DNA of 64,000 nucleotides from a virus: positions 1 through 64,000 of IMG/VR virus record IMGVR_UViG_3300028837_000875. One strand, written 5' to 3'. A model generated the notes under the pieces. That model searched no databases. It worked only from the letters and a program-made list of their open reading frames with translations, and was not told where the DNA came from. Shown piece by piece: positions 50,544 to 56,336 of this stretch; the stretch's first letter is position 1, and each line of letters begins with the position of its first letter. A program made the position numbers and the translations under genes.

Positions 50544-51593
50544 ATGGTTAAGTTGAATGCAGCATTGATTGATGAAGTCAATGAGCTTTTTGAAAGAGGC
50601 GTCATCATTGACTTGGATATTTCCTGGTGGTCAGGACAGGCGAAATTGAGAGCAGAAGATTTGGGCATCCCGAAAGATGACATCAATCTTGATTTATTCT
50701 CGCTCGGTAGGAAGCGGTTCATATCTAAGAATTGGATTGGCCGCTTTCGCAAGTATGAGCAGAAGGGACGCGCCCTTGTTGACGAATATTCTTTCAGATT
50801 CAAGAGAGGTGCAAATTCATTTGTCCCGCTCGATGCTCTTCCGGCAATGCTTGAGAGATTGAATGACTGCAAAGAGAATTTCCTCAAGGTCGTCCAAGGC
50901 TTTGCTGAGCAGTATCCAATGATAAAGAGAAAGATGATTGTGGCCTGGGGCGAAGAGGTTCCGAAAATATACAAGCGTCTGAAATCTTTCGGAGCAAAGG
51001 TCCCGAGTGTAGAAACATTCGAGAAACGTTTCATGGAAGCAGTCAAGAACTGGTATCCGAAGGACCCAACTATTTTCTTCAGATACACTTGGTCGTTTCA
51101 TGAACTGACTTTGCCTCGGCAGTTCAAAGAGAAAGAAGTCAAGCTGAAAAGAAAGCTCAAGAAAGCGGACCTTGAAAGAGCAAAGCAAAGAGCATTGATT
51201 CAGAAATATAATGATGGCTTGCAGAATCAAGTCAGCGATTTTCTTGAGTCAGTTGTTCGCCAGCTAAGAAGCTCAACTGTTGAGCTTGCAGAAAGAGTAC
51301 GCAAGCAGATAACAGACGGAAGCGTTACTGATAACAGACTTGATAGGCTCCGTGAGTTCATCGACAAATTCACGAAGCTCAACTTTATGAATGACCGCGA
51401 GGTTGAAGTTTCTCTTCAGGACCTTAAGAAAAATCTTGAGCATACAGCAGAGGAATACAAATCTAATGAGGAGCTTGAGTCTGCTCTTCGCGGTTCGCTC
51501 GGAAAAGTAATCAAGATTGCATCGAAGAATGGCGCGGCTGTTCTTGCTTCTGCTTTCAGCAGGAAGCGCAAAGTCGTCCGTCGCAAAAAGTAA
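50544..51593 (+). CDS. DUF3150-like protein, 349 aa
   Basis: ATG at 50544 after AAGGAGGAATAATA-type site. The N-terminus (ELFERGVIIDLDISWWSGQA) and the following AEDLG segment match DUF3150, a family often encoded next to AAA+ ATPases in phages. The C-terminal 150 residues are coiled coil with a basic tail. Its biochemical role is unknown. Here it directly precedes the Ycf46-like ATPase and may be its partner. Confidence 0.6.
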   Translation: MVKLNAALIDEVNELFERGVIIDLDISWWSGQAKLRAEDLGIPKDDINLDLFSLGRKRFISKNWIGRFRKYEQKGRALVDEYSFRFKRGANSFVPLDALPAMLERLNDCKENFLKVVQGFAEQYPMIKRKMIVAWGEEVPKIYKRLKSFGAKVPSVETFEKRFMEAVKNWYPKDPTIFFRYTWSFHELTLPRQFKEKEVKLKRKLKKADLERAKQRALIQKYNDGLQNQVSDFLESVVRQLRSSTVELAERVRKQITDGSVTDNRLDRLREFIDKFTKLNFMNDREVEVSLQDLKKNLEHTAEEYKSNEELESALRGSLGKVIKIASKNGAAVLASAFSRKRKVVRRKK

Positions 51594-51616
51594 TAAGAAT
51601 TGAAAGGAGAATAGAG

Positions 51617-53164
51617 ATGGGATTTAAGACAGAAATTACCAGCCACATAGCAGCTGGCTACTCGATTCTATATGTGCAGAGCTATGAAGAACTCAGAGCA
51701 CGCATCGTCCTTCGCGACGTTGCTGAAAAGCTCGAAAAGAAATTCTATCTTTGGTCGTCAACCATCGGCCTTTGCGCTGTAGAAGGCGACGAGCTTACAA
51801 AGATAGAAGAGACGCAAAGCCCAGAAGAATTGCTGAGTCATCTTTTCGAGAGCTTCACTGAAGAGATGGCAGTTATCGTGCTTTGCGATTTCCACGAGTT
51901 CATGGACGACCCAATGGCAAAGAGAGTCATTCGTGAACTTGGCTCTCGCTTCAAAGAGAAAGGAAACAACTTAATTTTTCTCTCGCCAATTATGAAGCTT
52001 CCTCAGGAGTTGAAGAAAGACGTGACGCTCGTTGAGTTTGACTTGCCAAACAAGGAAGAGCTTGCGAAAGTTGTTGAGGAAGTTGGCGAAGAAAACGAAG
52101 TTGAAATAAATAATGGACAGCTTGATAAAGTTCTTGAAGCTGTTCTTGGTTTGACTACGATAGAAGCGGAAAACGCTCTTGCTCTTTCAGTGTACAACCA
52201 TAATGAATTCTCTCCTGCTGAGCTAATGAAAACCAAAGCAGCAACAATCAAGAAGTCAGGAATACTCGAGTACTTCGAGTCTGATTTCACATTGGAAGAT
52301 GTTGGCGGCTTTCCAGTGCTCAAGGAATGGCTGAGACTCAGAGAGCTTGCATTCACAAAGGAAGCAAGAGAATACGGAATAGACCCGCCGAAAGGTGCGT
52401 TGCTTCTTGGCGTACCAGGCTGCGGCAAAACGCTGTTAGCGCGTGCGGTTGCCAATGCCTGGGGTATGCCATTGCTCAAGCTCGACCTTGGCCGTGTATT
52501 CGGTTCGCTGGTAGGTCAGTCAGAAGAAAACATGAGAGCAGCGATTCAACTTGCGGAAGCAGTAGCCCCTTGCATTCTCTTTGTAGACGAAATCGAGAAA
52601 GGACTTGCAGGAGCCGGAGGCGGTGGCAAGCATGATTCAGGAGTCACGGATAGAGTGTTCGGCACATGGCTGTCCTGGATGCAAGATAAGAAGTCTCAAG
52701 TATTCGTCATTGCTACAGCGAATAATATTGAGGCTCTTCCTGCACCGCTGCTCAGAAAAGGAAGATTCGATGAAATGTTTTTCGTCGACCTTCCAACAGA
52801 GGAAGAAAGAAAAGAGATATTCAATATTCATCTGAGCAAGCGCAACCGCAAGCCGAAAAACTTTGACTTAAACGAGCTTGTCAGACAGACGGATAATTTC
52901 ACTGGCTCTGAAATTGAGGAAGCAGTCAAGTCTGGGCTGTTCCATTCTTTCTCGGAAAATCGAGAGCTTGAGACAAAGGATATTGTTCGAGTCATTAGAG
53001 GAACGGTACCGCTAAGCAAAACAATGTCACTTCAGCTTGATGCTATTCGCAAGTGGGCTAAGGACAGAACGGTTAACGTCTCTTGCTCTGGTTCCGAAAA
53101 GAAGCTCTTGAAGAAAAAAGTTATTCGCAAAATCAAAGGCCGCGGTAACAGCTCACTCAATTAA
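51617..53164 (+). CDS. Ycf46/FtsH-like AAA+ ATPase, 515 aa
   Basis: ATG at 51617 after AAAGGAGAATAGAG. The N-terminal 200 residues (AAGYSILYVQSYEELRARI) are a Ycf46-type domain. The AAA+ core has Walker A GVPGCGKTLLARAVA (about 265-279), Walker B CILFVDEIEKGLAGAG, sensor 1 VFVIATANN and the arginine-finger-like RKGRFDEMFFVDLP. It lacks a transmembrane segment and protease domain. It likely remodels protein or nucleoprotein substrates together with the adjacent DUF1257 and DUF2997 proteins. Confidence 0.85.
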   Translation: MGFKTEITSHIAAGYSILYVQSYEELRARIVLRDVAEKLEKKFYLWSSTIGLCAVEGDELTKIEETQSPEELLSHLFESFTEEMAVIVLCDFHEFMDDPMAKRVIRELGSRFKEKGNNLIFLSPIMKLPQELKKDVTLVEFDLPNKEELAKVVEEVGEENEVEINNGQLDKVLEAVLGLTTIEAENALALSVYNHNEFSPAELMKTKAATIKKSGILEYFESDFTLEDVGGFPVLKEWLRLRELAFTKEAREYGIDPPKGALLLGVPGCGKTLLARAVANAWGMPLLKLDLGRVFGSLVGQSEENMRAAIQLAEAVAPCILFVDEIEKGLAGAGGGGKHDSGVTDRVFGTWLSWMQDKKSQVFVIATANNIEALPAPLLRKGRFDEMFFVDLPTEEERKEIFNIHLSKRNRKPKNFDLNELVRQTDNFTGSEIEEAVKSGLFHSFSENRELETKDIVRVIRGTVPLSKTMSLQLDAIRKWAKDRTVNVSCSGSEKKLLKKKVIRKIKGRGNSSLN

Positions 53165-53187
53165 GATAATAGAAAGAGAGGTGACAA

Positions 53188-53583
53188 ATGTCACATTGGT
53201 CAACAGTTGAAACTGAATTCACAAATGAGCAAGGATTGATTGATGCTCTTAAGGAGATGCATCCAGAACATGAAGTAGTCAAAGGTGGCAACGTGCGCGG
53301 CTACCAAGGGACGCAGAAAGCTGATATCGTCCTGAAGGGAAAGAACATGACGCGCAGTTCTGGATTTGATATCGGATTCAAGAAGAATGCCAATGGAATG
53401 TACTCAGAAATTTCCGATTGGTATGGACTTGATTGGCTTGGAGATAAGTCAACGTTCCAAGATAGATTGAAACAGAGCTATGCCAAGGCAGTCGTCAAAA
53501 GGCGTGCGAAGAAATTCGGCTGGACCATCAAAGAAAAGCAGCAAGAAGATGGAACAGTCAAACTCTCTCTGACAAAATTCTAA
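53188..53583 (+). CDS. DUF1257 (Ycf35-like) protein, 131 aa
   Basis: ATG at 53188 after AAGAGAGGTGACAA. Signature features of the family: MSHWSTVETEFTNEQGLIDA, GYQGTQKADIVLKG, GFDIGFKKNANGMYSEISDW and a C-terminal EDGTVKLSLTKF. Ycf35 and Ycf46 are encoded together in chloroplasts and cyanobacteria, and here the order is Ycf46 then Ycf35. The function of the family is not established. A paralogue lies at 54070. Confidence 0.85.
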   Translation: MSHWSTVETEFTNEQGLIDALKEMHPEHEVVKGGNVRGYQGTQKADIVLKGKNMTRSSGFDIGFKKNANGMYSEISDWYGLDWLGDKSTFQDRLKQSYAKAVVKRRAKKFGWTIKEKQQEDGTVKLSLTKF

Positions 53584-53598
53584 GAAAGGAAGTGAGCT

Positions 53599-53790
53599 GT
53601 GAGAATAAGAAAAGAAATCATCGTCACGATAGGAACAAAAGGCGAGACAAAGATTGAAGCCAAAGGTTTCAAAAACCGAGAGTGCTTGAGAGCGACTCAG
53701 CCGTTTGAGGAAGCTCTCGGTAAAATCTCCAACAGAAAAATGAAGAGACCAGTTGAGACTCAGAAGGAGACGCAGAGCCTTGGAAACTAA
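53599..53790 (+). CDS. DUF2997 protein, 63 aa
   Basis: GTG at 53599 after AAGGAAGTGAGCT. KGETKIEAKGFKNRECLRAT followed by EEALG matches the DUF2997 core (G-x-x-x-x-E-x-x-G-F-x-x-x-x-C-x-x-A-T). This small family is typically found with DUF1257, completing the cassette. The 3' end overlaps the next small gene by 11 nt. Confidence 0.75.
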   Translation: MRIRKEIIVTIGTKGETKIEAKGFKNRECLRATQPFEEALGKISNRKMKRPVETQKETQSLGN

Positions 53791-53950
53791 AATAGAAATC
53801 ATCATTGAATCAGACGGCAAAATTAAATCTTGGTGGTCACCAGAGTTCGAGGAACTCGTATCAGAAGTGGCTACTGAAAAAATAGAGAATAGAGAAGGGG
53901 GTCCCCAGCCAATCGGGGACCTGCCCTTCCATCCTGAATTTTGCGGATGA
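53780..53950 (+). CDS. Small hypothetical protein, 56 aa
   Basis: TTG at 53780 with AAGGAGA at 53764-53770; the upstream in-frame part is an Arg-rich shadow of the previous gene. Starts METKIEIIIESDGKIKSWWS, reminiscent of a truncated DUF2997-like strand pattern. Its 3' end contains a GGTCCCC/GGGGACC hairpin (53900-53921). Confidence 0.5.
   Translation: METKIEIIIESDGKIKSWWSPEFEELVSEVATEKIENREGGPQPIGDLPFHPEFCG
53899..53922 (+). other. GC-rich hairpin at a gene end
   Basis: GGTCCCC (53900-53906) and GGGGACC (53915-53921) pair perfectly around an 8-nt loop, with a flanking G-U pair. It lies inside the last codons of the small gene and has no T-run after it. It stands out in this AT-rich genome and precedes the structured leader at 53949. 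Confidence 0.55.
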
Positions 53951-54069
53951 AAGCTGGATATAGATAAATGAAGCTTCAAAAGCATTCAAGACACCGCCTC
54001 ATACCCTGTAGGAGGCCGTCTAACGAAGCACCTAATGGTTCTATATGCTGGCTTTCAGGGAGGGAATAG
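53949..54069 (+). ncRNA. Predicted structured leader before the second DUF1257 gene (possible 33-codon ORF inside)
   Basis: A closing helix is formed by GAAAGC (53949-53954) with GCTTTC (54051-54056) and ATATAG (53958-53963) with CTATAT (54041-54046). Inside are TGAAGCTTCA, a GCCTC/GAGGC hairpin (53996-54016) flanked by GAC/GTC, and ACC-TAAT-GGT. It ends at the GGGAGGGAATAG ribosome site of the next gene. An ATG at 53968 opens 33 codons ending at 54069, but the Arg/Cys/Ser-rich product looks non-coding. The 15-mer ACCCTGT-N2-GAGGCC (54003-54017) recurs at 58729. Confidence 0.4.
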
Positions 54070-54468
54070 ATGTCTCATTATTCAGAAGTAGATACGGCGT
54101 TCAGAGATAGAGACTGTCTCGTTGAATCTCTGCAAGAGATGGGTTATCAAGTAGAGATTCACGAAGGTGAAGGCTCTAATCTTTTTGGTTATCAAGGAGA
54201 CAAGCGAGAGCAGAAAGCAAACGTAATTGTTAGGCGTCAATTTGTTGGACGCTCTTCAAATGATTTGGGCTGGAAGTGGAACGCGAATAGCGGATGCTTC
54301 ACTCAGATTATTTCTGAGTTCGACCAATACACAAGCAAGCTTGACGAAGGCAAGCTAAAACAAATGTATGCTGAGAAGAAAGTGACTAAGAAAGCACGTA
54401 AGCTTGGTTACAGAATCAAGCGCAATGTTGAGGACGGAGCTGTTCAGCTTACGTTGGTGAAATACTAA
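54070..54468 (+). CDS. Second DUF1257 (Ycf35-like) protein, 132 aa
   Basis: ATG at 54070 after AGGGAGGGAATAG. Clear paralogue of the protein at 53188: MSHYSEVDTAFRDRDCLVES, FGYQGDKREQKANVIVRR, NDLGWKWNANSGCFTQII and EDGAVQLTLVKY. The changes around the central GF-D-I-G-F motif (here N-D-L-G-W) suggest a different partner or ligand. The stop overlaps the next start (TAATG). Confidence 0.8.
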   Translation: MSHYSEVDTAFRDRDCLVESLQEMGYQVEIHEGEGSNLFGYQGDKREQKANVIVRRQFVGRSSNDLGWKWNANSGCFTQIISEFDQYTSKLDEGKLKQMYAEKKVTKKARKLGYRIKRNVEDGAVQLTLVKY

Positions 54469-55508: not shown

Positions 55509-56336
55509 ATGAAGTTAGAGGCGATGAAGTCGTTCGCAAAGGACAACGGAATCAAGGTCAGCAAGAAGGAGACGGAGAAATCGCTGGAACTGAAGATACG
55601 CGAGAAGTGGGAAGAGGACGGCATTGAAAACGAATGCCTCTGCCCGTCTTGCAGTGCAGAAATTCCTGACTTGAATAGCTGTCCGTTCTGCGGTTCGGTA
55701 TTTGAGGAAGAGGAGAAAGAGGAGCCTCAGCCTGAGAAGGAAGAGAAGAAAGAAAGCAAAAAGAAAGCAAAGTCAAAAGGTAAAGGGAAGAAAGACAAGC
55801 CCGCAAAGAAAGAGAAGCCGGCCAAGAAAGAGAAGGCGAAGAAAGAAAAGAAGGGACCCAAGGCAGGTGGCTTGAACTTCAAAGACTGCGTCGAGCACAT
55901 TTCTTCTTACGTCGAGAAAGAGGGCTACGAAGTCAGGGTAAGAGGCAACTTTACTTCTTACTTCATCGACGGCCTCCGCGTTTTCCACATCTCAAAAGCT
56001 ACCAGAGCTTACTCGATGGAAATCGGTGCTCCTGGTTTCTCAATGAAGATGAAGCACGGAGAAGTCAAGACTTTCTCTGACGAAGAAAGAGCACGCAAGC
56101 ACATGGCTGGCATGTTCGGCACTCTCAAGACAACCAATCTTGACGAAGCTCTTGCAGCGGTCAAGGAAATGACCAAGTGTGCGAGAGCATATCTGGCGAA
56201 GAACAAGAAAGAGAAGCCGACAAAGAAAGAGAAGGCAGCGAAGAAAGTCAAGAAGCCTGCGAAGAAAGCGGCCAAGAAGCCCGCAAAGAAAGTGCTCAAG
56301 AAGAAAGTCAAGAGCAGCAAGAAGAAAAAGAAGTAA
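55509..56336 (+). CDS. Histone-H1-like, zinc-ribbon DNA-binding protein, 275 aa
   Basis: ATG at 55509 after GCAAGGAGGTAAGG, the strongest ribosome site nearby. Residues 1-35 resemble a SAP/HeH-type DNA-binding helix pair; CPSCSAEI and CPFCGSVF form a zinc ribbon. A first Lys/Pro/Ala run (residues 80-118) is followed by a globular domain (FKDCVEHISSYVEKEGYEVR ... RVFHISKATRAYS), and a second H1-like tail (KKPAKKAAKKPAKKVLKKK) ends the protein. Codon use is GC-richer than average, as for the capsid gene, so abundant expression is likely. It may compact or coat phage or host DNA. Confidence 0.65.
   Translation: MKLEAMKSFAKDNGIKVSKKETEKSLELKIREKWEEDGIENECLCPSCSAEIPDLNSCPFCGSVFEEEEKEEPQPEKEEKKESKKKAKSKGKGKKDKPAKKEKPAKKEKAKKEKKGPKAGGLNFKDCVEHISSYVEKEGYEVRVRGNFTSYFIDGLRVFHISKATRAYSMEIGAPGFSMKMKHGEVKTFSDEERARKHMAGMFGTLKTTNLDEALAAVKEMTKCARAYLAKNKKEKPTKKEKAAKKVKKPAKKAAKKPAKKVLKKKVKSSKKKKK

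Follow-up and report, generated by a model that had tools for sequence, protein, structure and literature searches.

A gene cassette around a Ycf46-like ATPase recurs across phages and may encode a protein-remodelling machine

We analysed a stretch of viral DNA of 64,000 nucleotides (the window; positions 1-64,000 of IMG/VR virus record IMGVR_UViG_3300028837_000875, the whole of which has 88,571 bases). Genes for a DUF3150 protein, a Ycf46-like AAA ATPase, a DUF2997 protein and two DUF1257/Ycf35 proteins lie side by side in it. That these genes form a phage-wide module is well supported. They probably encode a dedicated ATP-driven protein-remodelling machine, and the explanation we tentatively prefer is an active p97-like machine whose adaptors are exchangeable and whose clients are most likely thiol, metal or iron-sulphur (Fe-S) proteins. 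Our confidence in this explanation as a whole falls a little short of even, because the machine is likely and the client class is considerably more doubtful. Proteins with reactive cysteines, metals or Fe-S/radical chemistry are the best of several candidate clients, on circumstantial grounds. The protein families and their cyanobacterial neighbourhood are already known.

Co-occurrence of the cassette genes in viruses

The window ATPase matched 137 of 50,697 phage records in a tblastn search. An IMG/VR scan with an ATPase alignment gave the best 80 of a larger number of loci, and the viral set used here comprises 91 loci, the window included. Hidden Markov models (HMMs) of the partner families were iterated on viral loci and consequently favour viral forms; L001-L003 and L017 were excluded from HMM runs. 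The partners were found on the ATPase strand in every locus that had them, DUF1257 in 49 of 91, DUF2997 in 45 and DUF3150 in 36, and within 4 kb of the ATPase in 48, 39 and 34 loci, respectively. All three were present in 26 of the 91 loci and none of them in 35. The viral loci are not independent: removal of near-copies reduced the 91 ATPase open reading frames (ORFs) to 84, with counts of 42 for DUF1257, 38 for DUF2997 and 30 for DUF3150, and of 26 and 25 for two further families, C265 and C114, described below. Pfam's own models, run on the 50 whole records that represent 50 of 90 ATPase loci, detected DUF1257 in 19 (17 over the cut-off), DUF2997 in 30 and DUF3150 in 12.

The same set was recovered when the search started from a partner. 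The sequence-only reading of this DNA had proposed that the genes work together, a view against which independent occurrence in related phages would speak. Scans from the partners did not show such independence. A scan from the subfamily of the second DUF1257 (subfamily B) returned 52 loci, with the ATPase nearby in 44, DUF2997 in 47 and DUF3150 in 36. A scan from DUF3150, built on module-linked sequences, returned 20 loci, with the ATPase in 19, DUF1257 in 19 and DUF2997 in 20. Twelve of the 52 loci lay on contigs already found in the ATPase scan, and the 20 DUF3150 loci overlap both other scans. Nine partner-scan loci had no nearby ATPase; in five of these records it was located elsewhere, in two of them split in two pieces. 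In the large genomes G016 (548 kb), G017 (219 kb) and G024 (351 kb), the ATPase, DUF1257 and DUF2997 were all present about 38 kb or more apart, and since the dispersed parts persist, close linkage alone is not a sufficient explanation for their joint occurrence. Co-occurrence from three starting proteins, persistence when dispersed and exchange of whole parts thus give the proposed working unit good support.

These data also bear on the view that the genes were brought together merely by chance co-transfer and have a separate role each. Gene order does differ among loci and single parts stand alone in some of them, as that view would have it. However, the genes share a strand in every locus, reverse searches return to the set, dispersed parts persist and alternative partners exclude each other, so that chance linkage appears highly improbable.

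Related layouts were found in isolated phages of several hosts. Rhizobium phage RHph_I4 has the order ATPase, an ORF of 200-240 amino acids (aa), DUF1257 and DUF2997, the last two annotated as such. Rhizobium L338C, Agrobacterium JP1, Aeromonas HJ05, Rhodobacter RcKickapoo and Pseudomonas SM1 showed a similar layout by alignment, and in some isolates one or two extra genes were interposed. The named hosts of carriers include Rhizobium, Agrobacterium, Aeromonas, Rhodobacter, Pseudomonas and Mycobacterium, the carriers from Mycobacterium having the second build described below. The set is no special find of one phage and is spread widely across unrelated phages. Plain searches with the window proteins found no DUF1257 in phages or viral contigs and no DUF3150 in phages; these relatives were detected by profiles only. 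The Streptococcus satellite phage Javan368 (L008, 14 kb) encodes the ATPase but no known partner.

The ATPase and its two sets of partners

The ATPase (51617-53164, plus strand, 515 aa) matched PF00004 (E 9.3e-33) and, over residues 3-499 and hence near its full length, the phage family phrog_8638 (E 3.3e-134). Its second AAA domain keeps K271, D324, E325, N369 and R383. The Walker A lysine, the Walker B aspartate-glutamate pair, the sensor asparagine and one arginine were invariant in 178 aligned rows (87 viral and 91 cellular), and the other arginine was kept in 85 of 87 viral and 91 of 91 cellular rows. When the N-terminal part was compared with the family's own C-terminal AAA profile, hhalign gave a probability of 85.7% (E 5.5e-6, 150 columns); six other profile comparisons with this part gave no match. 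The AAA match of the N-terminal part and the position of the listed ATP-site residues in the second domain alone mark it as a double-AAA protein in which the first domain is degenerate and has lost its site and the second has intact catalytic residues. In two genomes the ATPase match was in two pieces, located in two frames in G046 and separated by a gap inside one frame of 1035 aa in G049; the cause may be an insert, for example an intein or an intron.

VAT and p97 were the solved relatives nearest to the ATPase by sequence. The phage protein has the AAA domain and catalytic residues in common with p97, CDC48 and VAT. Unlike them, it has lost the ATP site of the first AAA domain, and it scored far under the NCBIfam cut-off for CDC48 (TIGR01243; 135.8 against 802.65 bits).

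This relationship is relevant to the main rival explanation, in which the machine helps replication by remodelling replication proteins, for instance by loading or unloading DnaB or by clearing protein blocks from phage DNA. The window cassette lies downstream of a primase-like gene and DnaB. Apart from the partners, the most frequent neighbour cluster, at 17 loci, is one that we take by eye to be DnaB-like, and another at 12 loci presumably encodes an SF2-type helicase. Seventeen loci are nevertheless far fewer than the partners reach (49, 45 and 36), the nearest relatives of the ATPase are p97/VAT and not helicase loaders, and the set also occurs on cyanobacterial chromosomes and, according to the literature, in plastids. 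A role as replication helper is thus rather unlikely.

Many loci had a different set of partners around the same ATPase. Among the 35 viral loci that lack all three DUFs, 24 had C265 (phrog_11021, Catdawg gp95-like); C114 (phrog_11784), a small family beginning M-P-C, occurred in 25 viral loci, an almost identical set. Neither family was ever on the strand opposite the ATPase or more than 4 kb away from it (C265 26/26, C114 25/25). DUF3150 and C265 were never found together in the 91 loci, nor were DUF1257 and C114. The second build stood alone in 25 loci, two mosaics combined C265 with DUF1257 and DUF2997, and one partner set or the other was present in 81 of the 91 loci. In the Corndog-type build (phrog_8638, phrog_11021, phrog_11784), the ATPase family is the same and there is likewise one helical and one small partner; C265 and C114 take the place that DUF3150 and DUF1257 have in the window, and of the 27 loci that contain at least one of these two families, 25 lack DUF2997. 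The hhalign comparisons of C265 with DUF3150 and of C114 with DUF1257 outscored every one of the 47 null clusters, whichever direction was taken, with low single probabilities (4.9% and 24.3%, respectively). Remote homology within each pair is suggested.

The preferred explanation, a remodelling machine with exchangeable adaptors, would work as follows. Ycf46 subunits would assemble into a ring, with ATP hydrolysed by the second AAA domain and the degenerate first domain playing a structural part. The small partners, DUF1257 and DUF2997 together with DUF3150 in the phage form, would contact the ring and select or present the client. The exchangeable phage-type helical part, DUF3150 or in the other build C265, would set the target of the machine in infection. 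ATP would drive refolding, activation or disassembly of cofactor-dependent client proteins, and the machine may activate or repair them during phage DNA synthesis. The swap between DUF3150/DUF1257 and C265/C114 offers a natural test of which partner picks the client.

Cellular relatives and candidate clients

Ycf35 and Ycf46 are conserved plastid and cyanobacterial genes that for decades have had no known explanation. Because phages of tractable laboratory hosts (Mycobacterium smegmatis, Rhodobacter capsulatus and Rhizobium) carry the core, their function becomes testable by phage gene deletion rather than in a photosynthetic organism.

When 84,980 genomes were scanned with the ATPase, the best 80 of at least 573 confirmed stretches were retained, and together with nine plasmid loci these make 89 cellular loci. 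DUF1257 was present in 54 of these, DUF2997 in 38, an NrdG-type radical-SAM protein in 22 and DUF3150 in 2, a low count that may partly reflect HMMs favouring viral forms. Both cellular DUF3150 loci also contain the phage neighbour family C88 and are therefore possibly phage-derived. The cellular relatives include cyanobacteria, Myxococcales, Verrucomicrobia, Bacillota and archaea, with the core on bacterial chromosomes. DUF2997 was uncommon among Actinomycetota, at 2 of 246 with the centre genome counted.

In the plasmid pPPM1a of Paenibacillus polymyxa, the ATPase, DUF1257 and DUF2997 stand in a row and belong to the same families as in the phage. This form has a radical-SAM gene (for a 4Fe-4S single cluster protein) that is absent from the phage record, whereas the phage has DUF3150. 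Two of the 22 radical-SAM calls were weak (E 6e-4 and 7e-6), the C-x3-C-x2-C motif was present in 21 of 22, and three of four candidates checked matched PF13353, the fourth being on a stretch that ends before its domain. NrdD is the enzyme activated by NrdG. Of 16 records checked that carry the radical-SAM gene, only 6 had a NrdD match, two of the ten without one being large Dactylosporangium genomes, and a role of the radical-SAM protein as NrdD activator was rejected. In the Treponema loci L095 and L105 the radical-SAM gene adjoins the ATPase; L095, a plasmid, has them amid annotated contractile injection and baseplate genes.

The literature describes a similar neighbourhood in cyanobacteria. 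DUF2997 and ycf35 are clustered with the ferredoxin gene fed7 (PMC4284462), and in Synechocystis both fed7 and ycf35 are SigD-dependent (PMC8875361). Ycf46 corresponds to slr0374, a gene in a stress-responsive operon, whose inactivation is reported to make the carbonic anhydrase EcaB less active (PMC7496141, which cites Jiang et al. 2015). Slr0374, Ycf35 and the fed7 cluster represent the ATPase, DUF1257 and DUF2997 families that the phage also has. Unlike the phage, the cyanobacterial loci examined had no DUF3150. No ferredoxin was noted among the scanned neighbours of the phage cassette, and no search aimed at ferredoxin was made over the record. Our literature search, with most subscription papers outside its scope and no searchable names for the two builds, returned no account of the phage module or of DUF3150.

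Four observations point to thiol, metal or Fe-S proteins as clients: the conserved cysteine of DUF2997, the cysteines and histidines of C114 (two of each in 25 of 25 rows), the cellular radical-SAM neighbour and the fed7 cluster. The phage has a ribonucleotide reductase at 74055-77198 of the record (L255:10055-13198), in a frame where an HNH nuclease domain lies within an intein-like stretch. As a general client this enzyme was rejected, since only 11 of the 50 whole ATPase-bearing records encode it.

Several points weigh against the preferred explanation. The radical-SAM gene was present in only 5 of the 91 viral loci, and our own HMM found none in the window or in positions 64001-88571 of the record. 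Conserved cysteines and histidines can serve structure equally as well as chemistry, and a histidine near the N-terminus of DUF1257 was present in 61% of rows only. An aromatic residue is usual at the pore loop of threading motors; the window ATPase has a leucine there, as do 36 of 87 viral rows. The second-hand report on EcaB fits other readings as well. Ten of the 91 viral loci had the ATPase without any known partner, and four records of 13.5-41 kb, perhaps fragments, had partners but no ATPase. Lastly, the evidence consists of genes and comparisons, and interaction, activity and client are putative.

The sequence-only reading had suggested host takeover or anti-defence, in which the machine would unfold or disarm host proteins. 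DUF3150, found in 36 of 91 viral and 2 of 89 cellular loci, might in this way give a host-type motor a new target, and the ATPase also occurs in a satellite phage and on plasmids. Searches with PADLOC and NCBIfam, however, gave no match to a defence or counter-defence family beyond generic AAA similarity to IetA and others. The ATPase has its AAA domain in common with IetA of the IetAS defence system (PADLOC, 4.3e-30) and scored far under the NCBIfam cut-off for the anti-phage ATPase (87.6 against 510 bits). The core is, moreover, a chromosomal gene set in cyanobacteria and other bacteria. The suggestion is left unsupported, and we regard it as improbable.

The names Ycf35 and Ycf46, which come from plastids, might suggest auxiliary photosynthesis genes acquired from cyanobacteria, as in cyanophages, and among 14 control genomes DUF1257 was indeed found in Synechococcus only. 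The hosts of the named carriers listed above and the relatives in Myxococcales, Verrucomicrobia, Bacillota and archaea argue against such an origin, as do the absence of DUF3150 from the cyanobacterial loci examined and a tree, weakly supported, in which phage proteins were not nested inside cyanobacterial ones. This origin is the least credible of the alternatives.

A broader version of the remodelling explanation is speculative: one widespread phage-coded p97-like motor with two interchangeable partner sets might keep cysteine-, metal- or radical-dependent proteins working when phages of many hosts infect, and plastid ycf35 and ycf46 might be chromosomal members of the same mobile system.

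Layout of the cassette and its surroundings

The gene order and positions proposed from the sequence were borne out, with all genes on the plus strand and five of the six products passing the curated Pfam cut-offs, the small ORF being the exception. The gaps are only 23 nt between DUF3150 and the ATPase, 23 nt between the ATPase and DUF1257 and 15 nt between DUF1257 and DUF2997, so that one operon is likely. The DUF3150 protein (50544-51593, 349 aa) scored 63.3 bits against the PF11348 cut-off of 24.9 (E 3e-17), and E 1.5e-55 with our own HMM built without it. Its predicted structure (pLDDT 85.2) has long helices, with an alpha/beta part at the N-terminus and a helical bundle at the C-terminus. 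A structure search with this model gave generic helical bundles only (best Z 11.4, rmsd 2.6, 100 aligned).

The two DUF1257 proteins, of 131 aa (53188-53583) and 132 aa (54070-54468), scored 56.2 and 41.5 bits against the PF06868 cut-off of 22.2 (E 4.4e-15 and 1.7e-10) and are 39-41% identical. Both motifs named in the sequence-only reading, FDIGF in the first copy and NDLGW in the second, are present. The second copy had been described as a diverged duplicate. It is not merely a degraded copy, because it carries the motifs of a large phage subfamily, RR..VG..[AS]ND[ILV]G, as seen in alignments. A sister relationship of the two copies was neither supported nor rejected (p-AU 0.32) in a quick tree of 72 of 85 rows, from which 13 long or gappy rows had been dropped. 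DUF1257 likewise stands in two adjacent copies in G016, G017 and G024, so the pairing recurs; the second copies of these three form one clade in the full tree (98/97 support), apart from the window copies. The model of the first copy (pLDDT 91.8) had no match in the PDB at E <= 0.001, and a search by sequence found no solved relative. The best structural match on a second look was Flpp3 (Z 6.2, rmsd 3.3, 88 aligned), within the range common for such models. A single strong match was viral and unnamed.

The DUF2997 protein (53599-53790, 63 aa) scored 38.7 bits against the PF11211 cut-off of 24.1 (E 8.8e-10) and has the cysteine of the family. This cysteine was kept in 118 of 119 aligned rows; the exception is the small ORF at 53780-53950, which begins with TTG at about 53780 and has a serine in that column. 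The small ORF overlaps the 3' end of the DUF2997 gene, had no match in Pfam and gave E 0.19 over 17,911 ORFs with a DUF2997 HMM built without it. It is possibly a degenerate DUF2997. The C88 family was rejected as an explanation of it (E 12). C88 is a small family found near the ATPase in 26 viral loci with DUF1257/DUF2997 (for example L040, L066 and L072), and a stretch of 17 columns at its start is similar to the DUF2997 hairpin.

A gap of 119 nt (53951-54069) separates the small ORF from the second DUF1257. The stretch 53870-54069, which comprises the end of the small ORF and this gap, folds unusually well as RNA (z -3.12, 2 of 200 shuffles), and the predicted structure has a GGUCCCC/GGGGACC stem. 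An Rfam search of the stretch found no family.

The record encodes terminase, portal, capsid and tape-measure proteins, DnaB and a helicase, and these are the surroundings of a tailed phage. Further genes in the window encode a primase-like Toprim protein, ThyX and a nucleotide kinase. At 55509-56336 of the window lies a gene for a lysine-rich protein of 275 aa, with weak Pfam matches only, which has a zinc-ribbon-like stretch and a histone-like tail.

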